Positions 18,389 through 31,111 of a stretch of 64,000 bases of DNA are shown in pieces (position 1 is the first letter of the stretch; every line of letters begins with the position of its first letter). Source of the stretch: Microbulbifer agarilyticus (lineage in GTDB: Bacteria > Pseudomonadota > Gammaproteobacteria > Pseudomonadales > Cellvibrionaceae); assembly GCF_001999945.1 (NCBI RefSeq), contig NZ_CP019650.1, positions 2,480,001-2,544,000 of the forward strand, read 5' to 3'. The translations under genes and the position numbers were made by a program. The notes beneath the pieces were generated by a model. It searched no databases, was not told the DNA's origin, and worked only from the letters and a program-made list of their open reading frames with translations.

Positions 18389-19774
18389 TTACGCGCGATG
18401 CAAATAACTCTGGTATTCAACGTCAGTAACACGTGCGGAAATTTCCGCCTGTTCCTGTCGTTTCAATAATACAAACAAATCTACAAATTCGGGATCAAGG
18501 TATTCACGCCACAACGCACTTTTCTCGAAGCGTTTCAGCGCACCACTCCAGGTATTGATGAGCTGCTCACTCTCTACCTGATACGCATCCCCTTCCACCG
18601 GCGCACCCGGCTGGAGTTTATTTTCCAGACCGTGACAAACCCCGGCGAGTATTGCCGCCAGCACCAGGTAGGCGTTTACATCGGCACCGGCGATACGGTG
18701 CTCAATGCGGCGCGCCGCAGGTTCACTCGCGGGGATACGGAATGTCACCGTGCGGTTGTCGTAACCCCAACACAGATTCAAGGGCGCATGACTGCTTTCC
18801 TGAAAACGACGGTATGAGTTTGCGTGGGGGGCAAAAATCGCCATGGCGTCATTGGCCGTCGCCATCATACCCGCCACTGCTTGTTGCAATAGCTCGGAGC
18901 CTTCATCAGTGCCGTCGTTAAAGACGTTATTGCCGTCTTTATCAACCAGGCTCATATGCACGTGCATACCATTGCCCGCTTGCTCACCAAACGGTTTGGC
19001 CATTGTGCTAACCCGCAGTCCATGGCTGCGTGCAACACCTTTTAACAGGCGCTTGAACAACAAGGTCTGATCGGCAACTTTTACCGGGTCATCGCTATGC
19101 AATAAATTGATTTCAAACTGGCCGGGCGCGCACTCAGAAAGAATGGAGTCTGCAGGAATCCCCTGCTCCTCACAAGCTGCGCGCACGTCGGCAAAGAAGT
19201 GCCGCTGGGCATCCAGCTCTGCCAAGTCGTATACGTCGGTAGAGGGTACCAGGTCGCTATCGTTATCACTGACCGGGCGCGGACGCCCTAATTCATCGGT
19301 GTCCTCACGCAACAGGTAAAACTCCACCTCGGTTGCGCACACGGCCTTCAGACCAAGACACGCCAGGCGCTCAACCACCTTCTGCAATTGCGCGCGCGGA
19401 TCTGCGTAAAGCACTGAACCATCGGCCTCATGCAATTGCATGTGCAGCTGCGCGGTCTGCTCGCGATGCCACGGGGCCAGACAAATTGGCGAAACAGGCT
19501 GGCAAACCCCATCGCTGTCACCACTGGCAAATACCAACGGACTGTTTTCAACATCGCGACCCCAGATATCCAAGCTCACGGCACTGCGGGGCATCTGCAA
19601 GCCACCCTTCAAGAGCTTTTTAGCGGAATCTGCCGGCAGCCACTTCCCCCTTGGCACACCGTTAATGTCAAAGGCGAAGCCTTCGATCCATTTAAGGTCC
19701 GGGTGATCTGCAAGGAAAGCATTCGAGGTTTCGAGGATTTCCGCGGGCGGCTGGTATTTTTCTTTTGCTGCCAT
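18389..19774 (-). CDS. Glutamine synthetase family enzyme, probable gamma-glutamylpolyamine synthetase (PuuA type)
   Basis: ATP-dependent ligase expected to gamma-glutamylate putrescine or another polyamine, the first step of the gamma-glutamylated putrescine route. The glutamine-synthetase fold is visible in CATEVEFYLL (metal-binding Glu), SECAPGQFEINLL, GNGMHVHMSLVDKDG (ATP/His segment) and RIEHRIAGADVNAYLVLAAILAG near the C-terminus. The N-terminal WIEGFAFDINGVPRGKWLP replaces the beta-grasp pattern of true GlnA, and the adenylylation loop is missing, both as in PuuA. Length 461 is normal. The polyamine aminotransferase gene lies just upstream on the same strand, which supports a polyamine role. 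Separate hairpins suggest semi-independent expression. Confidence 0.85.
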   Translation of the reverse strand: MAAKEKYQPPAEILETSNAFLADHPDLKWIEGFAFDINGVPRGKWLPADSAKKLLKGGLQMPRSAVSLDIWGRDVENSPLVFASGDSDGVCQPVSPICLAPWHREQTAQLHMQLHEADGSVLYADPRAQLQKVVERLACLGLKAVCATEVEFYLLREDTDELGRPRPVSDNDSDLVPSTDVYDLAELDAQRHFFADVRAACEEQGIPADSILSECAPGQFEINLLHSDDPVKVADQTLLFKRLLKGVARSHGLRVSTMAKPFGEQAGNGMHVHMSLVDKDGNNVFNDGTDEGSELLQQAVAGMMATANDAMAIFAPHANSYRRFQESSHAPLNLCWGYDNRTVTFRIPASEPAARRIEHRIAGADVNAYLVLAAILAGVCHGLENKLQPGAPVEGDAYQVESEQLINTWSGALKRFEKSALWREYLDPEFVDLFVLLKRQEQAEISARVTDVEYQSYLHRA

Positions 19775-19816
19775 AAAAGGGATTCACGCTGTTGAAGGAT
19801 GCTATTGAAAGGAAAT

Positions 19817-19844
19817 GGCCCCCACTACAAATCCAGTGGGGGCC
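19817..19844 (-). terminator. Hairpin between the aminotransferase and PuuA-type genes
   Basis: GGCCCCCACT (19817-19826) pairs with AGTGGGGGCC (19835-19844), eight-base loop, just after the aminotransferase stop at 19856. On the minus strand only ATTTCC follows, so it may attenuate rather than fully end transcription before the next gene. Confidence 0.6.
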
Positions 19845-19855
19845 CGCTATGGATT

Positions 19856-21205
19856 TTACGCCATGGCCTTGGCGGTTTCATCCAGCGCACGGTGTGCCTT
19901 GTCCACCAGCTCGTCAATATGTGCGGTATCCAGAATCAGCGGCGGAGCAATAATCATGGTGTCGCCGGTTGCGCGCATCACCAGACCATTTTTGATGCTC
20001 ATGTCGCGACAAACCGCACCAGCAGTGCAATCATCGTCAAAGCGCGCGCGGCTACCTTTATCTTTCACCAATTCCAGTGCGCCTACCAAACCGAGGGTAC
20101 GCGCCTCGCCCACGATGGGGTGATCGGACAGTTCCGCCCAACGTTTGGCGAGGTATGGGCCGGTGACATCCCGCACGTTTTCAATGATTTTTTCATTGCG
20201 CAGGATGTTGAGGGTCACGATGCCCGCCATACAGGCTGCCGGGTGTGCGGAGTAAGTATAACCGTGGGTAAACTCACCGCCCTTCGCCTTGATCACTTCC
20301 GCTACGCGGTCGCTCACCATAGTACCACCCAGCGGGAAGTAACCATTGGTTACTGCCTTGGCAAAGGTCATCAGATCCGGCTTCATGCCATAGTAGTCGG
20401 CACCGAACCATTCACCGGTACGTCCGAAGCCAAAGATTACTTCGTCCATTACCAGCAGAATGTCGTACTGATCCAGAACCTTCTTCACCTCAGGCCAGTA
20501 GGTTTCCGGCGGGATAATCACACCGCCCGCACCCTGAATTGGCTCGGCAATAAAGGCGGCTACTTTCTCTGGGCCCAATTCCTGAATCTTTTCATCCAGA
20601 CAACGCGCGGCGTAAACACCAAACTCCTCCGGTGACATATCGCCACCTTCGCCGAACCAGTATGGCTGCTGGATGTGCTCAATGTAGTCCAGTGCCTGGA
20701 ACTGCTTGTGCATACCGCTCATGCCACCCAGGCTGGCACCACCAATAGTGGAGCCGTGGTAGGCGTTTTGGCGGGAGATCACAATACGCTTCTGAGGCTG
20801 GTCTTTCAGGTCCCAGTAGCGACGAATAATTCGCAGGTTGGTGTCATTGGCCTCACTACCGGAACCGGTGAAGAACACATTGTTCATACCGGCCGGGGTC
20901 ACTTCGGAAAGCAGGTCGGCGAGTTCAATGGAGGGCACGGTGGTGCACTGGAAAAAGCTGTTGTAGAACGGCAGTTTATTGAGCTGCTCGTAAATTGCTT
21001 CACTAATTTCCCGGCGGCTGTAGCCGAGGTTACAACACCACAGGCCGGACATGCCGTCGAGCATGGTGTGGCCATCGATATCGGTGATGTACGGACCTTC
21101 CGCACTGGTGATTACACGGGTGCCCTGTTTGCCAAGGTCGTGGAAATCGGTAAACGGATGCAACAGGTGATCGCGGTCATGCTGTTGTAGCTGATTTTTG
21201 TTCAT
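19856..21205 (-). CDS. Class III aminotransferase, putrescine/polyamine:pyruvate type (SpuC-like)
   Basis: PLP enzyme of 449 residues that transaminates putrescine, cadaverine or similar amines with pyruvate. Family features: HPFTDFHDLGKQGTRVI at the N-terminus, FTGSGSEANDTNLRIIRRYW (phosphate contact), AEPIQGAGGVIIPPETYWP, the PLP-phosphate Asp in MDEVIFGFGRTGEWFG, and the Schiff-base Lys in MTFAKAVTNGYFPLGG. ATG 21205 has AGGAG eight bases upstream; longer reading in frame is possible but the family starts here. Next to a PuuA-type synthetase it points to putrescine catabolism. Arginine from the neighbouring cyanophycin genes could feed this route through putrescine; that link is inference. 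Confidence 0.87.
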   Translation of the reverse strand: MNKNQLQQHDRDHLLHPFTDFHDLGKQGTRVITSAEGPYITDIDGHTMLDGMSGLWCCNLGYSRREISEAIYEQLNKLPFYNSFFQCTTVPSIELADLLSEVTPAGMNNVFFTGSGSEANDTNLRIIRRYWDLKDQPQKRIVISRQNAYHGSTIGGASLGGMSGMHKQFQALDYIEHIQQPYWFGEGGDMSPEEFGVYAARCLDEKIQELGPEKVAAFIAEPIQGAGGVIIPPETYWPEVKKVLDQYDILLVMDEVIFGFGRTGEWFGADYYGMKPDLMTFAKAVTNGYFPLGGTMVSDRVAEVIKAKGGEFTHGYTYSAHPAACMAGIVTLNILRNEKIIENVRDVTGPYLAKRWAELSDHPIVGEARTLGLVGALELVKDKGSRARFDDDCTAGAVCRDMSIKNGLVMRATGDTMIIAPPLILDTAHIDELVDKAHRALDETAKAMA

Positions 21206-21538: not shown

Positions 21539-22867
21539 TTAACTAGAAGCCGGCGTAACAGTCACCGCTACAGGCACCACATCCAGGGTGACATCAACCA
21601 CCGAATACTGGTCTTTGGTACCCGAGCCATAGCGCCAGAAACCCCGAGACTGCTCGGTCTGCTGGAACTGGAACAATACCCCCTGCCCCGTTTCGTCGCT
21701 AAAAGCGTAGCGCCGCAACTCACGAACTTCTCGATTGTCCAGCAAGGAAAAGCCCAGCAAATGATCCAGGCGCTGGTTTGCCAGCGCGATACCGGCGCCT
21801 TGGGTCGCGCGATAACCAAAGGCTTCCTGGCCGGGGGTTTCACTGCCAGCAATCGTGACCTCGCCAGTTTCCCAGGCCAGAGTATCCTCAGTACTCAAAA
21901 CACTGAGACGCAAACCTTTGGCCGCGAATGGCTCCTCTACAGGCCCAAACCGTGCAGTGCGGCCATCTACCACTACCAGATTGCCAGCACCGAGAACTTT
22001 CAGGGTCTTGTTGCCGAGGTTTACCAGCAGTGCGGTGTCTTCATCCACACCGTAGCCAACCCTGAAAGCTTCCTCAGAGGCGAAACCCAACGCCCGGATC
22101 AAGCGCCCCAAGCGCGCTTTGCGATCAAAGTGCTGATCCACCACACCAAAGGGCAGAAAGCCGAGACCGCGCGCCAGTAACAGCTGCCCAGACTCCTGAC
22201 TTTCCATACCCGCGTACACTTCAACGCTGGGCAGAGTCAGCGCACTCAAGGAGTCTCCCGCTGCAATCATGGTTTTACTCATAATTGCGGCACCGGCGCT
22301 GGTACCGCCAACGATCGCGCCCTGCGACAGCTGCGAGCGAATCGCGGTGAGGACCGGGCCATCTTGCCCGTCAGCACTTAACAACGTAGCGGTGATTTTG
22401 GTCTGATCGCCACCGACAAACCAAATACCACCAACGTCCGCCAACTCTTCGGCAAGCGCTACGTCGCGGCCACCATCGCGCCACAGGCTTTCATCCACCG
22501 ATTCTGTGGAGGCATCGTCTTTTACGGCGATGGGCAGCACGCGAATGTCACCAGCAAAACCAAAATGCCGCAAATCATCGGCAAACTGTTGCGCATAGTG
22601 CGCGGGTCGACCGGAGGCCGCCGGCACAATCGCCACACTAGGCAGCTCTGGGGGAATAGATTCGATAAACGCCCGGTAGACATCTTTGTTATCGCTTCTA
22701 AGCGCTCCACCCACAATCAGCAATCGGCCAGATTCACTGGCAACGTGGGTTGCACCCGGCTCTGCCGATGCATCTTTTTCCGGAGTCCCGTCACTTTTAC
22801 TGGAGCAAGCGGCTCCAGCAAACGCAAACACTAACAGCGAAAGACTCGCAATACGCCACAGGCTCAT
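21539..22867 (-). CDS. Exported cyanophycinase-like peptidase S51 (probable lipoprotein)
   Basis: Serine exopeptidase expected to release beta-Asp-Arg dipeptides from cyanophycin. The N-terminus (WRIASLSLLVFAFAGAAC) is a signal peptide with a near-lipobox ending at Cys21, followed by a charged linker, so the enzyme is probably anchored in a membrane and exposed outside the cytoplasm. Peptidase S51 motifs: GRLLIVGGALRSDN, IVPAASGR, WFVGGDQTK, nucleophile Ser190 in GGTSAGAA, and VVDQHF (His246) with a following Arg-rich RKARLGRL, the pattern seen in cyanophycinases. The C-terminal ~130 residues exceed the catalytic core and form an extra beta-rich region. Its ATG overlaps the AraC-type gene stop (ATGA), so it is translationally coupled and last in the operon. 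Confidence 0.83.
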   Translation of the reverse strand: MSLWRIASLSLLVFAFAGAACSSKSDGTPEKDASAEPGATHVASESGRLLIVGGALRSDNKDVYRAFIESIPPELPSVAIVPAASGRPAHYAQQFADDLRHFGFAGDIRVLPIAVKDDASTESVDESLWRDGGRDVALAEELADVGGIWFVGGDQTKITATLLSADGQDGPVLTAIRSQLSQGAIVGGTSAGAAIMSKTMIAAGDSLSALTLPSVEVYAGMESQESGQLLLARGLGFLPFGVVDQHFDRKARLGRLIRALGFASEEAFRVGYGVDEDTALLVNLGNKTLKVLGAGNLVVVDGRTARFGPVEEPFAAKGLRLSVLSTEDTLAWETGEVTIAGSETPGQEAFGYRATQGAGIALANQRLDHLLGFSLLDNREVRELRRYAFSDETGQGVLFQFQQTEQSRGFWRYGSGTKDQYSVVDVTLDVVPVAVTVTPASS

Positions 22868-23271
22868 AAACTTACCCCTACCCGAAAATTCTCCAACTTC
22901 GGCGAATCCACACAGAACTGAAGTGCGGCATCGGAAGGTTCGCCGAACATCCGTTCTCCCCGTGGGCTCCGCCCAAAATGTTCTTTAAAGCAGCGACTAA
23001 AATGGGAAGCAGAGCGAAAGCCACATTGCTGCCCGATAGCATCGATACTCTGCTCACTTTCCAGCAACAGCACGCGTGCATGCTGCAACCGCAACTCGCG
23101 ATAAAAACGTGCCGGTAATATGCCCTTGAAACGGCTGAATATACGCTCAAGCTTTTTCACCGAAATATCCAGATAAGTGGCCAACTCCCCAGTGCGCAAT
23201 GGCTCCGCGAGGTTATTGCTCATCAACGCAAGCGCTTCATCCAGTAACTGTCGATCTTGCAATACCACCAC
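22864..23271 (-). CDS. AraC-type DNA-binding domain protein (lacks sensor domain)
   Basis: Transcription regulator consisting almost only of the two-helix-turn-helix AraC domain. In 135 residues, HTH1 (TGELATYLDISVKKLERIF) lies near 27-45 and HTH2 (AIGQQCGFRSASHFSRCFKEHFG) near 78-100; it resembles the C-terminal domain of GlxA/ArgR-type AraC regulators, whose full proteins are about 320 residues with a PfpI-like N-terminal half. That half is absent. It is unlikely to be a decayed fragment, because a GTG start has GAGG seven bases upstream and sits 12 bases after the iadA stop, and the stop overlaps the cyanophycinase start. It probably regulates this operon; how it senses a ligand is unclear. 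The last ~30 residues are unrelated to the family. Confidence 0.8.
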   Translation of the reverse strand: MVVLQDRQLLDEALALMSNNLAEPLRTGELATYLDISVKKLERIFSRFKGILPARFYRELRLQHARVLLLESEQSIDAIGQQCGFRSASHFSRCFKEHFGRSPRGERMFGEPSDAALQFCVDSPKLENFRVGVSL

Positions 23272-23283
23272 AACAGAACCTCG

Positions 23284-24456
23284 CTATTCAGAGTGTTGAG
23301 ACGTCTGCAACGACTGGTCAAACAACTGCCAGCGGCCACGTGCCATTACATGCGTAATTTGGAATCGTTCAGGATCTACCAGCAGTAGGTCGGCATCGCG
23401 ACCAGGAGCTACTTGCCCCTTGCGCTTCAGGCCGAGGGCCCGCGCCGGGTTGCTGGTGACTGTCTGCAACGCGCGTGACAATTCTACTTTCTCATCCTGC
23501 ACCGTCCGTCGGAACTCGTCGAATAAGCTGGTGATAGCGCCCACTTCCATATTCTGCAGCTGACCCAAGTCGCAGAAATTTGTCAGTGAGCCCTGCGCGT
23601 CCGAAGAAAACGTAAGCTGGTCTATTGGCGCACCGAGCTCGAGCGCCAGCGACAACGCCTGGCTCGCGCGCATCTCGCCACTCGCCAGAATTTCATCGGT
23701 GGTGGATGTAGTGAAGTCGATAAAACCACCGGCACAGGCAAATTCCACACCCTGCTCCAATAGCGAACGGTTGCGATTCATATGGGTCGGATAAAACTGG
23801 GCAATGGGAATTTCAGAATTTTCAACCACATCAAACAATGGCTGCAGACGGTCAGCGCCGTCACCCACATGCACACTGATGACACCACCCTTTCCGCTCA
23901 ACATTCCCGCAACCCGAGCATCGGACGCAATGCGCGTTAACTCATCACGAGTGGGATGAGAAGAACGGTGGTCGGAAATCGCCAATTCACCCACACCGAT
24001 AATGTTGTCGATAAGGATGATGTCGCCACGCACACTACCGGTCAGGGTATTCACCGGTACTTGATAGGAGCCCGTCTGGATAAAGCATGAGATACCCTGC
24101 TCTTCCAGGGACTTGGCCTTACCGAACAACTCATTCAGGGTGCGGGTAATCGCATCGGTACCCAGGGCACCAACAATAGAAGTAACACCTCCGGCAATCG
24201 CATCGCGTACGTTCAACTCCGGCGTACGCGAGCCGAAGCCACCCTCACCACCGCCGCCAGTGATATGTACCAGCGAGTCAACCAGACCTGGCATCAACCA
24301 GGCGCCATCGGCATCCACCACTTGGCCGACGTTGTCGGGCAAGGCCAGCTGCTGATCGATTTTTGCCACCCGATCGCCCGCCACCAACACATCACAGCGG
24401 CCGAGACTGCGGGGGGAAAATACCTCCGCATTTTTTATCAGAGTAATTTGAGACAT
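23284..24456 (-). CDS. iadA: IadA-like isoaspartyl dipeptidase (amidohydrolase superfamily)
   Basis: Cytosolic metallopeptidase expected to split beta-aspartyl dipeptides such as beta-Asp-Arg into Asp and Arg. The 390-residue product follows IadA closely: GGGGEGG with Glu71, TGSYQVP with Tyr131, ISDHRS with Arg164, VHVGD (His196), PTHMNRN (His225, Arg228) and SSDAQGS with Asp286. Two metal-site positions differ from E. coli IadA in my alignment: the HxH pair reads L-V-H (Leu62 replaces the first His), and the carbamylated Lys position reads Glu157 (GVGELAISDH). Glu can replace this Lys in related amidohydrolases, but loss of the first His is odd. It lies 17 bases after the YfcC-type carrier gene and 12 before the AraC-type gene, within one operon with an exported cyanophycinase. 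Start ATG 24456 matches the family N-terminus. Confidence 0.83.
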   Translation of the reverse strand: MSQITLIKNAEVFSPRSLGRCDVLVAGDRVAKIDQQLALPDNVGQVVDADGAWLMPGLVDSLVHITGGGGEGGFGSRTPELNVRDAIAGGVTSIVGALGTDAITRTLNELFGKAKSLEEQGISCFIQTGSYQVPVNTLTGSVRGDIILIDNIIGVGELAISDHRSSHPTRDELTRIASDARVAGMLSGKGGVISVHVGDGADRLQPLFDVVENSEIPIAQFYPTHMNRNRSLLEQGVEFACAGGFIDFTTSTTDEILASGEMRASQALSLALELGAPIDQLTFSSDAQGSLTNFCDLGQLQNMEVGAITSLFDEFRRTVQDEKVELSRALQTVTSNPARALGLKRKGQVAPGRDADLLLVDPERFQITHVMARGRWQLFDQSLQTSQHSE

Positions 24457-24473
24457 AAAAAACTGCTTAGAAG

Positions 24474-26015
24474 TTAAAAGCCGGAAACGGCCGCAACCAA
24501 TACCGCCAACGACGCGAATAAAAACAGCGCCCCTTGCAGCGGTAAAATAAACCGAATCCATACCCCCCAATCCAGACGCGCCGCACCCAGGCAGCCCATC
24601 AATGCTGCGGACGTGGGCACCACAATATTGGTGAGACCATCGCCAAGCTGGAACGCGAGCACAGCGGTCTGGCGAGTAACACCCACCACATCCGCAAGCG
24701 GTGCCATGATTGGCATGGTCAGTGCCGCCTGACCAGAGCCGGAGGTAATAAAGAAATTAAATACGGTTTGGAACACCAACATAAACCAGGCTGAAACCGC
24801 GCCCGATACATCGGCCAGGCTATTACCTGCCACATGCAAGATCGTATTCAGGATACTTGCGCCCTGCGGGTCATCACCGCCGAGCAACAATACTATGCCC
24901 TTGGCAAACGCCACCACCATCGCTGCAGGCAGCAACTGCTGAGCGCCTTCTTTAAACGCCGCCGCAGCCTTGTTGGCGGTAAGCCCATTCAGGCCAAACG
25001 CGATGGAAACCGCGGCGATCACGATACCCATGGTGAAAAACTGGCTGGCAATCTCGGGCAGGAAGTAGCTGCGCTCCACCACCCCCCAGATCATCCACGC
25101 GATGCCCGCACAGAACAGCAGTAACACCCAGCCATCCCCGCGGACCATCGTTTGCAATGCATTAGTCGACACAGACTTGTCGCGAAACACCTGGTCAGAA
25201 GCATAAGCCAGCGAGCGCGAAGGCTTATGCTGTATGCGACGGGCATACAAAATGGTGTATGCCGCCAGGCCGCAGGTTGCCACCAACCAAAGAGCCATGC
25301 GCAAACCACTGCCGGACATCAAAGGAACTCCGGCAATACCCTGGGCAATGCTTACCCCAAAAGGATTCATCCAGGAGGTGGCGAAACCTACCTGAGTCGC
25401 CACATAGGTAACCAGCAGTGCGGTGATGCTGTCATACCCCATGGAAACCAGCAGGGGCACAACGATCAACGTAAAAGGAATGACCTCTTCGCCCATACCG
25501 AACACCGCGCCACCGAGGGAAAATAGAAAGCACAGTATTACCAGGTACAGGTGCCCGGCTTCGCGATTGCGCGCAATCACTTGAAACAAACCCCGCTCCA
25601 CGGAGCCGCTGGCAAATATCAAGCCGAAGGCACCACCGGTCAGCAGGATAAATGCGAACACACCAATCGATGCGCCCCATTTGCTGCCGGACACCATGCC
25701 CTCAAAGGCAAAATTCAGAAAACCAATACCCCCGCCCTCTGCAAACAGTGCCAAACCTGCCGGTTCGTCGGATGCCTGCTTGTAGCTGGTCGGGTCAATC
25801 ACACTGCGTTCCACCCCATCCACCACGTTGGTGACGGTATCAAAGGTGCCCGCAGGGATTAAAAAATTCAGCGCAAACGCGACGACGGCTACCCCGAGCA
25901 ATATCAGGTAGGTATCCGGCATGGCCCAGGTCTTAGGCGCCTGCGATTCCACTGACTCGGAAAGGCTGGTGACAGCAGAGTTGGTTTCGCTCGTTTGCAT
26001 AGAAATAAACCGCAT
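24474..26015 (-). CDS. YfcC family inner-membrane carrier (DcuC/ion-transporter superfamily)
   Basis: Polytopic permease of 513 residues with about 12 hydrophobic segments, of the YfcC/ArgT-like group within the C4-dicarboxylate carrier superfamily; members are linked to basic amino acids or small peptides. Recognisable segments are PDTYLILLGVAVVAFALNFLIPAGTFDT near the start, FGMGEEVIPFTLIVVPLLVSMGYDS, and the repeat-like SGSGQAALTMPIMAPLADVVGV with LGDGLTNIVVPTSAALMG near the C-terminus, which form the re-entrant substrate loops. First gene of the operon with iadA, so the cargo is probably a beta-Asp dipeptide or arginine. ATG 26015 and ATG 26000 are both possible; neither has a clear ribosome site. 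Confidence 0.83.
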   Translation of the reverse strand: MRFISMQTSETNSAVTSLSESVESQAPKTWAMPDTYLILLGVAVVAFALNFLIPAGTFDTVTNVVDGVERSVIDPTSYKQASDEPAGLALFAEGGGIGFLNFAFEGMVSGSKWGASIGVFAFILLTGGAFGLIFASGSVERGLFQVIARNREAGHLYLVILCFLFSLGGAVFGMGEEVIPFTLIVVPLLVSMGYDSITALLVTYVATQVGFATSWMNPFGVSIAQGIAGVPLMSGSGLRMALWLVATCGLAAYTILYARRIQHKPSRSLAYASDQVFRDKSVSTNALQTMVRGDGWVLLLFCAGIAWMIWGVVERSYFLPEIASQFFTMGIVIAAVSIAFGLNGLTANKAAAAFKEGAQQLLPAAMVVAFAKGIVLLLGGDDPQGASILNTILHVAGNSLADVSGAVSAWFMLVFQTVFNFFITSGSGQAALTMPIMAPLADVVGVTRQTAVLAFQLGDGLTNIVVPTSAALMGCLGAARLDWGVWIRFILPLQGALFLFASLAVLVAAVSGF

Positions 26016-26082
26016 TAAAAAGAAAAATTACCAGCGGGCGCGCAACGCACGCCCGCTGGGATCAGGTCCTGTGAGACGCCGA

Positions 26083-28950
26083 TCAGAACGCGTAGCCGTA
26101 GCTCAAGGTGTAGAAACGACCAAGAGAGTTATGATTAAAGTGGTCAACGTTGGCGCCTGTGCCCAGTACCAGCGGCGGCTCCTTGTCGAACAGGTTGTTA
26201 ACGCGCAGGCTCAACCAGCTGCCGTTGTCGAAATCGCGGGCGACGCGCAGGTCGAAGGTCACCCAGCTATCCACCTCAACATTACCTTCGTCATCGATAT
26301 CGACACGAGATGCGAAGTACTCGTTGCCTTCCTCAAGCACCGAATCCAATACACGCGGGCTGGGATCATCCATGTAGCTGTGGGTGTAACGGCCAGTCAA
26401 AGTGGAGGACCAGTCCTCGTAACGCCAACGCAGGGAGCTATTGGCCAACCAACGTGGGTAGGTATAGTTACCCGCTTCCTTCACGATTCCCAGCGCATCA
26501 GATGGCAACTTGTCGAACTCATTCAGGTAGGTACCATCCAGGGTGAAGCGGAAGTTGCCCCAGTTCTCAGTATCGAAGTACTGGGTAAACGCGACATCAA
26601 CACCATTGGTCTTCTGCCAGCCAAGATTGGACAGCTGGAAGTGTGCATCCACTACAAAGCCACCGGCCACTTCAAGGCCAGGCTGGCCAGTAGACAGTTC
26701 ACCTTCGCCAACTACTGCGAAGTCACCATTGAATGCGCGCAGAATGAAGTCATCTTCTTCCACACCGATCAGGTTCTCGTGTTCGATATTCCAGTAATCG
26801 ACAGAGATCTCGGTATCTTCGCTCGGTTTCAAGAGAAAGCCCGCACCCCAGGTAGTAGCAGTTTCCGGCTTCAGGCCATCGTTGCTCACATCCTCGGACA
26901 GCAGAGACTCACCGGACTCATCCGCAAGGCCGTCACAGGCAACAGGGGTTGCGCTACAGTCAACGGAATAGCTGGACAACAGCGTGCCCGCACCAACCTG
27001 CGCCAGAGACGGTGCGCGGAAGGAAGTAGACCAGTTGGAACGGAAGGTAATTGCATCGTTAAACTGATGACGCAGCGCAACCTTCGGGTTGGTGTCGCCA
27101 CCGAAGTTATCGTAGTGATCGTAACGCAAGGCGAACTGCAACTCGGTGTTAGCTGCCAGCGGAATCATCTGCTCCATGTAGACTGCCCACTGGTTACGTG
27201 CGGCGTCGGCAGACGTGGAACTGAAGCCCAGAATCGGCTCAGGATTTAGAGTGGTAGAAACAGCATCACCAGACGGGGTATCCACCACGGACTCGCGGCG
27301 GAACTCACCGCCAAAGGCCACTTGCACGGTACCTGCCGGCAACTCGATCCAGCTACCAGAGATGTTACCGTCAATGGCGTACAGATTTGACTTACCACCG
27401 CGTTTCGCGTCGGTGCGAATCAGGTCGTCCATCTCCGCAATCTGATCAACCTGGCCACCGAAGGGGTTGTACCAGGCAGTGGTTTTGCCGAGGTCTTCAC
27501 AGGTTTCACCCGCGCCGAAACTTGCACTGGGACGTGCCAGGTCTACTTCCCAGCGGTCGACAACGGAACCGTCGGTACACAGATTACCTACGCTGGCATT
27601 GTAGAAAGCATCCGCTTTGTACAACCCGGAAATACCACGCTGCTCGGATTCACTGCGGCCCAGGTTAGCGGCAACTTCCCAGTTCCATTCGTTGACTTCA
27701 CCGCGCAGGCCAGACACCAGGCGCATGGCCTCACTTTCAACTTCTACCGCACGCGCATCTGGGAATTTTCCCCAGGCGAAAATCGGATACCCGTAAAACT
27801 CGCTGAAATCGCTGGTTGGATAATCTGGATGGAAGGAACCTTCCTCAACCAGATCAGCCTTCAGAGCTTCTGGCCACAGCGGGCTTTCCGGATCGAAGGG
27901 CGCGCGGGAGAAGTTTGCCGGAGCAGAAGTGCCGCGGGACTCACTGGTTTGCAACATCAGAGTGTTAAACCACTCCAGATTGTCGGAGATATCGTAATTA
28001 AACGTTGCTACAACACTCGCGCTCTCGTATTCATCCTGAGTCGCGGCAACCGCATTGGTATTGAATTCACAGTAATCGCCGAAGCTGCCAAAACCAAACT
28101 GATCCTCCGGACAGCCGCCGGATACAGGGCCTTCGGTCTGATCGTAATACGCCAGGAACAAGTCATTGAAGCTCGGGTAAACACCCTGCTGACTCGGGCG
28201 CACGGAGTTCGCGGTCAAGTTACGGTCGCGGTCATACATCGCATTGCGAGAAAAAAGGTCAACCACCACCATGGTGTGGCTGGTATCGCCTTCGCGACCC
28301 CACACCCAACTCAGGTTGTATTTACCTTCATCGCTACCGGCGGTGGAGTTGCCGTGGGTCAAGGAAATTTCAGAACCATCAAAATCATCACGCAGCACAA
28401 AGTTCACAACGCCGGCAACCGCGTCGGCACCGTAGGTGGCCGCGGCGCCGCTGGGCAATACTTCTACACGCTCAATGGCAGACAGCGGGATCGAGTTGAC
28501 GTCGACGAAAGACTCCTGCCCCTTGGCAAAAGAGCTCACGGATACGCGACGGCCATTCACCAACACCAGGGTGGAACTGGCGCCCAAGCCACGCAGGGAC
28601 ACACCGGCAGCGCCTACCGGAGTGCTGCTGGAAAGTGCGCCGGAAGTAGCAGTAGAAAAAGTGCCACTGCCGCCACCAGTCTGGGAAAGCTGCTGCAGAA
28701 TTTCGATGGGAGAAGTTGCACCGGAAGCTTCGATGTCATCGCGATCAATTTGCACGACCTGTACCGCGCCTTCGGTATCCAGCCCCTTGATGTGGGTACC
28801 GGTAACCACGATTTCTTCAACGGACGCATCTGCACCTTTTGGTGTTTCCTGTGCCATTGCGAACGCACTGCTGCCAATCAATGAGCAGCCCAGCGCCAGT
28901 CGCACTGCCTTACTCAATGGCGTTTTATTTAGTTGGGTTCTGTTATCCAT
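26083..28950 (-). CDS. TonB-dependent receptor (omp-region type, large)
   Basis: Energised outer-membrane importer of 955 residues. ATG 28950 has a strong GGAGGG site eight bases away and opens a signal peptide (ALGCSLIGSSAFAMAQ). The N-terminal plug has EEIVVTGTHIKG (TonB-box-like), VSLRGLGASSTLVLVNGRRV and VEVLPSGAAATYGADAVAGVVNFVLR, as in the large receptors for peptides or glycans. The barrel ends SLGRFYTLSYGYAF with a C-terminal Phe. It is transcribed in the same direction as, and 67 bases before, the YfcC/iadA operon, so it probably imports the dipeptide released outside by the cyanophycinases. The substrate is inferred from neighbours only. Confidence 0.93.
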   Translation of the reverse strand: MDNRTQLNKTPLSKAVRLALGCSLIGSSAFAMAQETPKGADASVEEIVVTGTHIKGLDTEGAVQVVQIDRDDIEASGATSPIEILQQLSQTGGGSGTFSTATSGALSSSTPVGAAGVSLRGLGASSTLVLVNGRRVSVSSFAKGQESFVDVNSIPLSAIERVEVLPSGAAATYGADAVAGVVNFVLRDDFDGSEISLTHGNSTAGSDEGKYNLSWVWGREGDTSHTMVVVDLFSRNAMYDRDRNLTANSVRPSQQGVYPSFNDLFLAYYDQTEGPVSGGCPEDQFGFGSFGDYCEFNTNAVAATQDEYESASVVATFNYDISDNLEWFNTLMLQTSESRGTSAPANFSRAPFDPESPLWPEALKADLVEEGSFHPDYPTSDFSEFYGYPIFAWGKFPDARAVEVESEAMRLVSGLRGEVNEWNWEVAANLGRSESEQRGISGLYKADAFYNASVGNLCTDGSVVDRWEVDLARPSASFGAGETCEDLGKTTAWYNPFGGQVDQIAEMDDLIRTDAKRGGKSNLYAIDGNISGSWIELPAGTVQVAFGGEFRRESVVDTPSGDAVSTTLNPEPILGFSSTSADAARNQWAVYMEQMIPLAANTELQFALRYDHYDNFGGDTNPKVALRHQFNDAITFRSNWSTSFRAPSLAQVGAGTLLSSYSVDCSATPVACDGLADESGESLLSEDVSNDGLKPETATTWGAGFLLKPSEDTEISVDYWNIEHENLIGVEEDDFILRAFNGDFAVVGEGELSTGQPGLEVAGGFVVDAHFQLSNLGWQKTNGVDVAFTQYFDTENWGNFRFTLDGTYLNEFDKLPSDALGIVKEAGNYTYPRWLANSSLRWRYEDWSSTLTGRYTHSYMDDPSPRVLDSVLEEGNEYFASRVDIDDEGNVEVDSWVTFDLRVARDFDNGSWLSLRVNNLFDKEPPLVLGTGANVDHFNHNSLGRFYTLSYGYAF

Positions 28951-29689
28951 TTTATTGCCCTCCAGGAAAAATTCCTGTCTCCGATGGTTGTTTAGTTTTT
29001 CTGTGAGATTCGAAAATGCGCGAACTACAAGCATCAACAATCGACACTTCAGGCTCGCAAAAGATTTCCCTGGAAAAACCGGCGGCAATGCAGTGCAATA
29101 ACCCATGCAATCGACACCAAAGCAACGCATAAGCATTGCCAACAGAGCTCGACAAAATGAGTTGGAAATAAGAACGGATGAAACCGACTTATAGCTTCCT
29201 TGCACCCGCGCATAAATAAGCGGGGCCCCCGGTTAAACCGAGGTGGGGAAGCTACTCGTCAAACCACTCGCTGAGGTAGTAGTTGGAGGAGCAGCGCTTG
29301 ACAGTAGCAACCTTGTTCATTTTGCTCTTGATGCCTTGCACTGTTTATCAAGTACGTTTAACCAAATAACGACACTTGAACTTGGGAGTCAGATCGATCG
29401 CTCTCCTGATTCGGGTTTATCGCGTCAGAAGCATAACCAAATCTGATTACTATCGATCACACACCAATTTTTATCACGATGAAAAAAACCTGTAAAGGTT
29501 TTCTGCTACAGAATTAAATTCAGAAGCAGATATCGCCGGCAGCCGAATAATCTGCGATATCGGCAATTGAATTGTGGCGTATCTGCGATGACGTGGGAAG
29601 GAAACTGCTCGACGGTGAACCGGAGGGGAACAAATTCCCCTTCCGGTTCACCAATTCAATCACAACGTTTTGTTTTGCCGCAGCGGAAC
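28951..29689. other. 739-base intergenic region between receptor and second cyanophycinase
   Basis: Holds the long leader and promoter region of the TonB receptor and, near 29614-29652, a near-perfect hairpin after the second cyanophycinase gene. No convincing ORF, tRNA or named motif was seen in the 660 bases between. The region is AT-richer (about 29440-29590) than the flanking genes, as a promoter zone would be. Confidence 0.5.
29614..29652 (-). terminator. Long hairpin after the second cyanophycinase gene
   Basis: GGTGAACCGGA plus GGGGAA (29614-29630) pairs with TTCCCC plus TCCGGTTCACC (29635-29652), 17 base pairs with one bulged T and a 4-base loop. It lies 38 bases past the stop at 29690. 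No T-run follows on the minus strand, so it may stabilise the mRNA end or terminate by another route. Confidence 0.6.
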
Positions 29690-31111
29690 TTACTGATACG
29701 GCTGATTGATATAGAAGTTATTGGAGCGACCATCGATGCCTATGCGCTTCGGGGTCACATTGCTGGCACCGTTGGATATATTGAATTGATCAAACTCGCC
29801 CAGCTTATAGCGCAGGACATCTTCATAAATAACCGGCTGGCCACACTGAGCTTGCGTGCGACTGGTCTGACCATCCTCTTGCAGCACATACACGCTGCCC
29901 GCGCCATCAACTACACCACTGCCGTCAGGAGTAAAGAAGATCGAAGTGGCTTCGTCGACGCCGATGCCCTGAATGCCCGCAGGTAGTCCCGCCATAAAAG
30001 CCATTAAACGGCCCATACGATCGCGCTCGGCAAAATGCGTATCTACGATCACGCCCTGCATGATTGCAGTCGTCAGGAAGCCATCGGAAATATTGGTATT
30101 TTCGTGGCACAGGTCACTCACGGCTTCGGAGGAGTAGGCACCCAGCACGCCGTCAGGGTCGTAGATGTGCTCGGACTGCACAGCCGCACCGGCAGAGGTA
30201 CCGCCCAGGACACCACCACGTGCAATCACCTCATCCAGTGCCTGCTGGAGCGGAGTGCCCTGCCACTGATTCAGGTAGTCGGACTGGTCGCCACCGGCAA
30301 TCCACACAAACTCGGCAGAGCGTACGGCCCAGGCAACGTATTCGTCATTGGCGTGCTGTTGACGATCAACAATCAGGGTTTCGACGGAATCTGCATTGAG
30401 CAGCCCCTGCAGATAATCGTTGTAGCCATCGCTGCCACTGGTACGTAGCACCACGACATCACCACCACCGATCAACGGCTCTACACGACGGGTAAACGCG
30501 GCATCGACATCGCTGCCGCCGCCCATCACCAGCAAGCCGCCGGAAGTCTGGTTTACACAGATATCGGCTTCACTCCCCGTGATGTATCGGGTCAAGCCAC
30601 CCGGCTTCGCCGGACGCGCGCCAACATTACAGTCGCCGCCACCGCTACTTCCGCCGCTGCTACCACCACTACTGCTACCGCCACTACTACTTCCACCCCC
30701 ACTGCTGGACGGGATGCCGTCCACATTCAGGGTGTAATCACCACGGCCCTTATAACGGGTTACCTTGAGCGTATACAGGCCACTGCCGTTGACACTGACA
30801 CTGGCTGACTCAGGACGGTTGCTCGTCTCGGCGCTATACAGTTGCTGCGACGCGTCATACAGGTGCCAATCAAAGTCGTCGCCACTATCGTGCGCCAGAG
30901 AGATATCTAAATCGGACGGAGTATCAATATTGAAGTAATACCAGTCCTGATCCCTGCGGTTGGCAATATTGCCAGCGACCGCCTGACCAGAACATACAGG
31001 ACCATCGGCATCAGCCTCGGCATCATTCGATTCGGTCTCCGCGGAGACACAGGCCAGCGCGCCGTGACTCATCGTGGAAAGCAAAAAAAGCGGGATAAGT
31101 TTTTTCTTCAC
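29690..31111 (-). CDS. Secreted cyanophycinase-like peptidase S51 with pre-peptidase domain
   Basis: Second extracellular cyanophycinase of the locus, 473 residues. GTG 31111 has GAGGA eight bases upstream. Order: signal peptide (MKKKLIPLFLLSTMSHGALA); a PPC-type beta domain near 40-131 with DQDWYYFNIDTPSDLDISL and SGLYTLKVTRYKGRGDYTLNV; a Ser/Gly linker at 135-159 of SSSGG repeats; then the S51 catalytic domain with GGLLVMGGGSDVD, WIAGGDQSDY, nucleophile Ser306 in GGTSAGAA, and VIVDTHFAERDRMGRL (His359). The linker is a common way for marine bacteria to separate a substrate-holding domain from a catalytic one. Paired cysteines (C21/C40, C161/C185 and others) suit a secreted protein. It is separated from the receptor by 739 bases and probably has its own promoter. 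Confidence 0.87.
   Translation of the reverse strand: MKKKLIPLFLLSTMSHGALACVSAETESNDAEADADGPVCSGQAVAGNIANRRDQDWYYFNIDTPSDLDISLAHDSGDDFDWHLYDASQQLYSAETSNRPESASVSVNGSGLYTLKVTRYKGRGDYTLNVDGIPSSSGGGSSSGGSSSGGSSGGSSGGGDCNVGARPAKPGGLTRYITGSEADICVNQTSGGLLVMGGGSDVDAAFTRRVEPLIGGGDVVVLRTSGSDGYNDYLQGLLNADSVETLIVDRQQHANDEYVAWAVRSAEFVWIAGGDQSDYLNQWQGTPLQQALDEVIARGGVLGGTSAGAAVQSEHIYDPDGVLGAYSSEAVSDLCHENTNISDGFLTTAIMQGVIVDTHFAERDRMGRLMAFMAGLPAGIQGIGVDEATSIFFTPDGSGVVDGAGSVYVLQEDGQTSRTQAQCGQPVIYEDVLRYKLGEFDQFNISNGASNVTPKRIGIDGRSNNFYINQPYQ

Follow-up and report, generated by a model that had tools for sequence, protein, structure and literature searches.

A conserved leader peptide, perhaps a ribosome-arrest sensor, at a probable cyanophycin scavenging locus of Microbulbifer agarilyticus

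Gene clusters for the scavenging of cyanophycin have been described before. The "cyanophycin utilization locus", made up of a cyanophycinase, iadA and a transporter, is cited from Ben Hania et al. in PMC10206079, the available part of which also counts genomes without cphA1 where cyanophycinase clusters with iaaA or iadA. In Citromicrobium sp. JLT1363, a TonB-dependent receptor (TBDT) gene was found in 2012 near a cyanophycinase gene, and cyanophycin was named among the likely TBDT substrates (PMC3400609, available part). Here, we analyzed a 64,000-nucleotide stretch of the M. agarilyticus genome (contig NZ_CP019650.1, positions 2,480,001 to 2,544,000; hereafter the window), which holds a six-gene locus encoding a TBDT, a YfcC-type carrier, an IadA-like β-aspartyl dipeptidase, an AraC-type protein and two S51 peptidase family proteins, S51a and S51b. 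The window shares with JLT1363 the closeness of TBDT and cyanophycinase genes, and with the utilization locus, as far as the citing description in PMC10206079 allows comparison, the clustering of cyanophycinase, iadA and transporter; a leader peptide, YfcC and IadA are not mentioned for JLT1363 in the available passages of PMC3400609. The new element of the locus is an unannotated 22-codon open reading frame (ORF) in the leader of the TBDT gene, ending in YYLSEWFDE and a stop codon and absent from the initial annotation of this DNA, whose peptide is most likely cis-acting and perhaps a ribosome-arrest sensor of arginine or β-Asp-Arg.

The closest described leader peptides are TnaC and SpeFL, presented in the available part of PMC8429421 as termination-arrest sensors of tryptophan and ornithine, each for one pathway, SpeFL acting on release factor 1 (RF1). 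With the 24-residue TnaC, tryptophan blocks release at the stop codon and keeps Rho off, the catabolic genes are transcribed, and residues 23 and 24 are proposed to disturb a loop of the release factor (same source, available part). The present leader is also a short conserved ORF before a putatively controlled uptake or catabolic gene. Unlike them, it has one peptide end that recurs in several families ahead of genes of five unrelated kinds, and its stop is TAG or TAA, whereas that of TnaC is UGA. In fungi, arginine stalls ribosomes carrying the arginine attenuator peptide (AAP) at the stop codon of an upstream ORF (PMC4505036, available part). The AAP is eukaryotic and lowers the expression of a biosynthetic gene, whereas the present leader is bacterial and stands before catabolic genes. 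The AAP presumably also carries a Tyr-Leu-Ser-acidic stretch near its end; the literature search found no paper printing that piece, and we take the likeness as a lead and not as a test. To our knowledge, few metabolite-sensing nascent peptides have been described.

The leader ORF was found 5' of the TBDT gene in the window and in 14 of 14 further loci (L003-L016) that had been fetched through the TBDT, independently of the leader pattern; its end is LSEWFDE-stop, or LKDWFNE-stop in L015. With one mismatch allowed, the pattern has a single match in the window (0 of 100 shuffles) and a single one in the 4.26-Mb genome. Exact-pattern scans, controlled with the reversed pattern counted as places, located it in 27 of 144 genomes of the organism's own family (control 1), 2 of 369 in a class sample (control 1), 6 of 398 in a phylum sample (control 4), 30 of 181 in the family of genome G885 (control 1) and 56 of 177 in that of genome G491, another gammaproteobacterial family (84 places, control 23), in which a single genome carries up to three copies. 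When the scans were relaxed, three genomes from the phylum sample and three from the family of G491 showed LSEWW[DN]E forms as well. The ending LSEW[FW][DN]E-stop is kept in four gammaproteobacterial families and also in alphaproteobacteria, more loosely in one of the two cases there. With a length of only some 22-36 codons, the ORF is easily overlooked. Three leader peptides submitted to Pfam and NCBIfam gave no match up to E 10, and the single Rfam match in the region 17-34 kb was far below its gathering score (21.9 vs. 49.5). LSEWFDE was printed in no paper found, and no paper found joined a leader peptide, a TonB-dependent receptor and a small ORF, in searches that left subscription papers and preprints mostly uncovered; the passages seen on cyanophycin and leader peptides, again with most subscription papers outside coverage, held nothing on such a leader. 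The promoter-like block 5' of the ORF has a similar block in the examined part of the Microbulbifer alignment, and a promoter consensus scan alone did not rise above chance. Before S51b of the window, no leader was seen in a search by eye.

From the fetched DNA, 138 distinct places of the end pattern were collected, and the best match within 700 bases downstream was taken as the gene. This was a TBDT in 73 places, an SBP_bac_3-type binding protein in 27, an S51b-like protein in 23, YfcC in 6, IadA in 1 and nothing in 8; with L012, where the gene matches in two pieces, counted as TBDT, the first number becomes 74, and 131 of the 138 places precede genes that belong to a single pathway and fall into five unrelated kinds. 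IadA follows the binding protein in 27 of 27 places. Two places (L165 and L179) have a binding-protein-type leader and no recognised gene in the downstream DNA covered. The five others (L087, L187, two in L201, and L208) look like chance; as no pathway gene was found at them and the motif is preceded by just 0-14 open codons, they were dropped from the codon counts, leaving 133. Among distinct TBDT-YfcC loci the leader is present in 34 of 35, or in 29 of 30 without the five brought in by the pattern. The TBDT of L012 (M. harenosus, about 10560) matches as if its frame were interrupted in that draft assembly. A tie of the leader to TBDT genes as such was rejected on the downstream-gene counts and on G885, where the leader stands before binding protein and IadA genes. 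In G885 (L103, 4911-11653), an AstE/AspA-type gene, an ABC amino-acid transporter, two binding proteins, the leader and IadA form one run; no TBDT or S51 match was found in this stretch.

The leader also follows the cyanophycinase from genome to genome. In the organism's own family (144 genomes), 28 have a cyanophycinase over the cut-off, 27 the pattern, 26 both and 115 neither; cyanophycinase occurs alone in G006 (an enzyme of cytosolic size, no TBDT match in the stretch) and G127, and the pattern alone in G023, where no pathway gene was seen in the stretch. In G491's family, 79 of 177 genomes match the TIGR02069 cyanophycinase model at E 1e-20, and the pattern occurs in 53 of the 64 genomes with a match longer than cytosolic size, in none of the 15 with only a cytosolic-size enzyme and in 3 of the 113 others outside the 64; this split was made from open-frame lengths after the data had been seen, and unsplit the counts are 53 of 79 with a match against 3 of 98 without. 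Three of the 11 longer-enzyme genomes lacking the pattern carry the WW form, and the other eight have no TBDT match within 12-kb stretches, one of them (G1145) having S51-YfcC-IadA. The pattern without a cyanophycinase match in this family was seen in G1155 and G1174 (TBDT downstream) and in G1202 (chance). Fisher tests on such counts treat related genomes as independent, and their p-values are too small.

These distributions bear on the substrate. A real locus serving isoaspartyl dipeptides from damaged proteins, or other peptides, with cyanophycin incidental, would suit G885's family, which has leader-binding protein-IadA units, G885 itself having no TIGR02069 match at E 1e-20 in its genome. 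However, the leader tracks larger-than-cytosolic cyanophycinases in two families and directly precedes one in 23 places, and we regard this alternative as unlikely. Since the controlled genes share the uptake or hydrolysis of cyanophycin or β-Asp dipeptides, and G885 combines leader and IadA with ABC amino-acid transporter and AstE/AspA-type genes while lacking the TIGR02069 match, a product of the pathway such as arginine or β-Asp-Arg is a likelier guess for the ligand than the polymer.

The leader is conserved as a peptide. The tail reads LSEWFDE in 117 of the 133 places, LSEWFNE in 15 and LKDWFNE in 1. The search pattern fixes W, F, D/N and E, leaves the second codon free and allows Phe at the first, so the constancy of W, F, D/N and E in places found with it is not evidence. 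Serine, which the pattern does not force, is kept in 132 of 133 through AGY (59) and TCN (73), leucine in 133 of 133 through six codons, and the residue two before leucine, again not forced, is Y, F, H or W in all 133. Keeping serine through two unlinked codon sets indicates selection on the peptide and not on the DNA. Each of the 133 places has 17 or more open codons ahead of the motif, and 52 of the 53 TBDT and YfcC leaders from alteromonads span 24 codons from an ATG. The leaders end in TAG in 89 places, TAA in 43 and TGA in 1, against TAA 167, TGA 122 and TAG 44 for BLAST-found genes in the same DNA. Only RF1 reads TAG and only release factor 2 (RF2) reads TGA, and the bias among the stops is therefore a hint that termination matters.

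RNA folding around the stop codon was compared by z-scores, means being taken with 40 shuffles each by a custom segment-swapping routine and with the upstream region as control. In an alignment of 16 Microbulbifer sequences, chosen from 19 by leaving out L004 (long insert), L005 (near copy) and L086 (another genus), the last leader codons and the stop are predicted to pair with a downstream arm; three of the 24 predicted pairs, all in other stems, change on both sides. Fold z-scores are -4.13 in the window, -3.83 in L007, -4.10 in L008, -3.25 in L011 and -7.05 in L013. Before TBDT genes, the mean z is -2.33 at the stop and -0.34 upstream (under -2 in 36 of 73 vs. 2 of 73), before binding-protein genes -1.89 and +0.39 (12 of 27 vs. 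2 of 27), and before YfcC -1.59 at the stop (2 of 6 vs. 0). A leader ORF followed by a stable predicted structure before TBDT and binding-protein genes, with peptides rich in aromatic residues, is also what classical amino-acid attenuation would give, in which the position of the ribosome reports the supply of charged tRNA for Trp, Phe, Tyr or another residue. However, there is no run of codons for an amino acid of the pathway, the conserved residues lie right at the stop, the codons for Ser and Leu are exchanged freely without a change of residue, and it is not obvious why a pathway that releases Arg and Asp should read the charging of Trp or Phe. Together these points make attenuation improbable.

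Strong conservation at the peptide level would equally suit a free small protein acting in trans, for example on the receptor, the carrier or the regulator. Yet copies recur before separate transcription units of one genome, up to three in all and, in a stretch of P. xiamenensis, two, one before a TBDT and one before an S51b-like gene; the N-terminal half of the peptide differs with the class of the downstream gene; and the AraC-type protein of the window has no match in L013-L015 or in G491, G620, G725 and G826. Such a protein is hardly to be expected. An operator or structured RNA with an accidental reading frame, although in keeping with the nearly invariant Microbulbifer stem around the stop, is scarcely credible beside the switching of serine between AGY and TCN, the six leucine codons, the three stop codons and the open codons before the motif.

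Considering these results, we think it rather probable that the locus as a whole combines scavenging of cyanophycin or β-Asp-Arg with a cis-acting arrest leader at the head of the TBDT operon. In the proposed model, a marine bacterium without a recognised cyanophycin synthetase would live on cyanophycin or β-Asp-Arg dipeptides: the S51 enzymes would cleave the polymer on the outer side of the inner membrane, its fragments would cross the outer membrane through the TBDT, YfcC would supply the cytoplasm with dipeptides or basic amino acids, and IadA would split the β-aspartyl dipeptides. The leader would act in cis, its nascent C-terminus at the peptidyl transferase centre and its stop codon in the A site; the ribosome would pause when a product of the pathway, most likely arginine or β-Asp-Arg, is present, and the paused ribosome would hold the stem at the stop codon open, allowing transcription or translation to proceed into the uptake and degradation genes, in the manner of TnaC for tryptophan catabolism. 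Leader translation, stalling, the ligand, the direction of regulation, the transcription unit and the substrates of receptor and carrier are what we infer in this model. The wider proposal, that LSEW[FW][DN]E-stop is an arrest peptide sensing arginine or β-Asp-Arg and reused, like a riboswitch, before several units of one catabolic pathway (receptor, polymer hydrolase, carrier, binding protein and dipeptidase) in Gamma- and Alphaproteobacteria, is a tentative one, to which we give somewhat less than an even chance.

Several observations weigh against an arrest leader of this kind. The main Microbulbifer stem, being nearly invariant, offers almost no covariation, and before S51b-like genes the structure at the stop does not exceed the control (mean z -1.12 vs. 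-1.2; under -2 in 6 of 23 vs. 9 of 23). No consistent intrinsic terminator follows the ORF: looked for as the common output step, a terminator passed a loose test with no shuffled control in 24 of 130 leaders. Outside the alteromonad TBDT and YfcC leaders the length varies, and six of the 133 ORFs have no in-frame ATG. The constancy of W, F, D/N and E is partly by construction, with WW variants appearing once the scans are relaxed, and one leader (L015) stops in TGA. Finally, G127 has the locus and no leader ORF was found there, which is the sole exception among TBDT-YfcC loci.

The locus itself is probably a cyanophycin scavenging locus, an idea that is sound but not new. The same six genes stand in identical order in 11 of 11 other Microbulbifer loci, a neighbourhood that the initial annotation had proposed to look for in other genomes; a Pseudomaricurvus locus (L013) has TBDT-YfcC-IadA-S51a and two alphaproteobacteria (L014 and L015) have TBDT-YfcC-S51a, so that TBDT-YfcC-S51 occurs in two bacterial classes. 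The order shared within Microbulbifer, and partly with L013-L015, indicates that the arrangement is not due to chance. TBDT-YfcC-IadA with a divergent S51 gene was found in G491, G620, G725 and G826, and likewise on three named Pseudoalteromonas plasmids. Cyanophycinase, isoaspartyl dipeptidase and transporter are clustered in the window, and no cyanophycin synthetase (CphA, cphA1) lies over the cut-off in the 4.26-Mb genome, the best score being 178.6 against 850 bits. The scavenging unit suggested in the initial annotation thus holds in that S51, receptor, carrier and dipeptidase genes are conserved together in a genome with no synthetase over the cut-off, and falls short as a novelty, as both the utilization locus and the TBDT-cyanophycinase pairing had been published. 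Uptake of this polymer by a dedicated TBDT had been thought not to be well described, and the available part of PMC3400609 places a TBDT beside a cyanophycinase as early as 2012. The further suggestion that released arginine passes to neighbouring SpuC/PuuA polyamine genes is weakly linked to the locus: these genes have no match at E 1e-8 in L013-L015 (the contig of L014 stops some 800 bases beyond S51), and the score of the PuuA-like gene, 205.6, lies far under the cut-off of 650 for gamma-glutamylputrescine synthetase.

Some further observations concern relatives of the locus. The SpuC-like aminotransferase and PuuA-like genes (18389-21205) follow the locus in 11 of 11 other Microbulbifer loci. 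In Pseudoalteromonas L260, L261 and L264 the locus lies on a very large plasmid, with an arginase-family gene nearby in L260 and L264. In L134, L135, L137, L138, L140 and L142, S51b-like genes adjoin TBDTs 24-36% identical to that of the window; neither YfcC nor IadA had a match there, a leader peptide was not seen, and these are perhaps another S51-TBDT pairing. The viral_contigs search returned no TBDT relative.

The features of the locus are collected in Table 1; the six genes lie on the minus strand at the positions given in the initial annotation.

Table 1. Features of the locus in the M. agarilyticus window, with positions counted from the first base of the window.
Feature	Position	Strand	Description
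S51b	29690..31111	-	PPC-like domain, Gly/Ser linker, S51 peptidase domain with GGTSAGA and DTHF; signal-like N-terminus (by eye); separate unit
Promoter-like block	29467..29496	-	TTTACA...AAAAAT, 5' of leader ORF
Leader peptide ORF	29252..29320	-	22 codons, MNKVATVKRCSSNYYLSEWFDE then TAG; alternative in-frame GTG start possible at 29341
Predicted RNA structure	29186..29260	-	5' arm, last leader codons and stop (GACGAGUAGCUUCC); 3' arm, GGAAGCUAUAAGUC; z -4.13
TBDT	26083..28950	-	955 aa; Plug PF07715 and barrel PF00593
YfcC-type carrier	24474..26015	-	DcuC family; NCBIfam name putative basic amino acid antiporter; NF008611
IadA-like β-aspartyl dipeptidase	23284..24456	-	TIGR01975; Leu62 replaces first His of HxH metal motif
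AraC-type helix-turn-helix (HTH) protein	22864..23271	-	135 aa, HTH only
S51a cyanophycinase	21539..22867	-	Above TIGR02069 cut-off; lipoprotein-like N-terminus (by eye)

The gaps between genes are -4 bases for S51a/AraC (an overlap), 12 for AraC-IadA, 17 for IadA-YfcC, 67 for YfcC-TBDT and 739 for TBDT-S51b, the last counted from the preferred TBDT start at 28950. The small gaps suggest that TBDT-YfcC-IadA-AraC-S51a form an operon; these five genes look like one transcription unit, and S51b, 739 bases upstream, like a separate one. Both S51 proteins had been called cyanophycinase-like, which holds for S51a (184.7 bits against the TIGR02069 cut-off of 126.6), while S51b stays below it (99.3 vs. 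126.6). The best PDB match of S51b is nonetheless a cyanophycinase (7uqv, E 1.6e-17), and its PPC-like domain lies under its own Pfam cut-off (23.8 vs. 25.9). In alignment with 7uqv and 3en0, the Ser and His motifs are kept in S51a (GGTSAGA, DQHF) and S51b (GGTSAGA, DTHF); we take the Ser of GGTSAGA to be the nucleophile and the His of DQHF/DTHF to be catalytic. YfcC passes the NF008611 cut-off (653.7 vs. 500), which assigns the family, the substrate being predicted, and IadA passes that of TIGR01975 (473.1 vs. 331.25). Both plug and β-barrel domains are present in the TBDT, whose closest named relatives come from M. agarilyticus (97%).

The IadA of the window has LxH in place of the HxH of the two-zinc site, a change that the initial annotation had not noticed; in EcIadA the two residues are H68 and H70 (PMC10206079, available part), and the first His is kept in all four solved isoaspartyl dipeptidases compared (7cf6, 7cdh, 8dqn and 5xgw). 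Among 52 distinct IadA matches in the fetched DNA, this position is Leu in 34 and His in 6, and is uncovered by the alignment in 12. All His cases (L025, L106, L148, L149, L262 and L263) lie near cytosolic-size cyanophycinases, and Leu is found in 34 of 34 readable relatives not beside such an enzyme, which sets the IadA of these loci apart from IadA near cytosolic-size cyanophycinases. No change was seen at the remaining ligand and substrate positions (second His, Glu, later His, Arg and Asp) where these could be read. The AraC-type gene is outside the shared core of the locus. The open frame holding its HTH has 150-169 residues in L004, L006 and L012 and 316-343 in L007-L011 and L016, with a DJ-1/PfpI match below the cut-off in L007 (20.6 vs. 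26.6); the window gene is reduced to the HTH domain, unlike the six Microbulbifer loci with the longer frames.

Conserved ahead of genes of five unrelated kinds, such a peptide end would amount to a portable sensor element. The leader gives direct access to the detection and use of cyanophycin by marine bacteria; it also provides a sequence tag by which the whole pathway can be found, including scavengers that take up dipeptides only.

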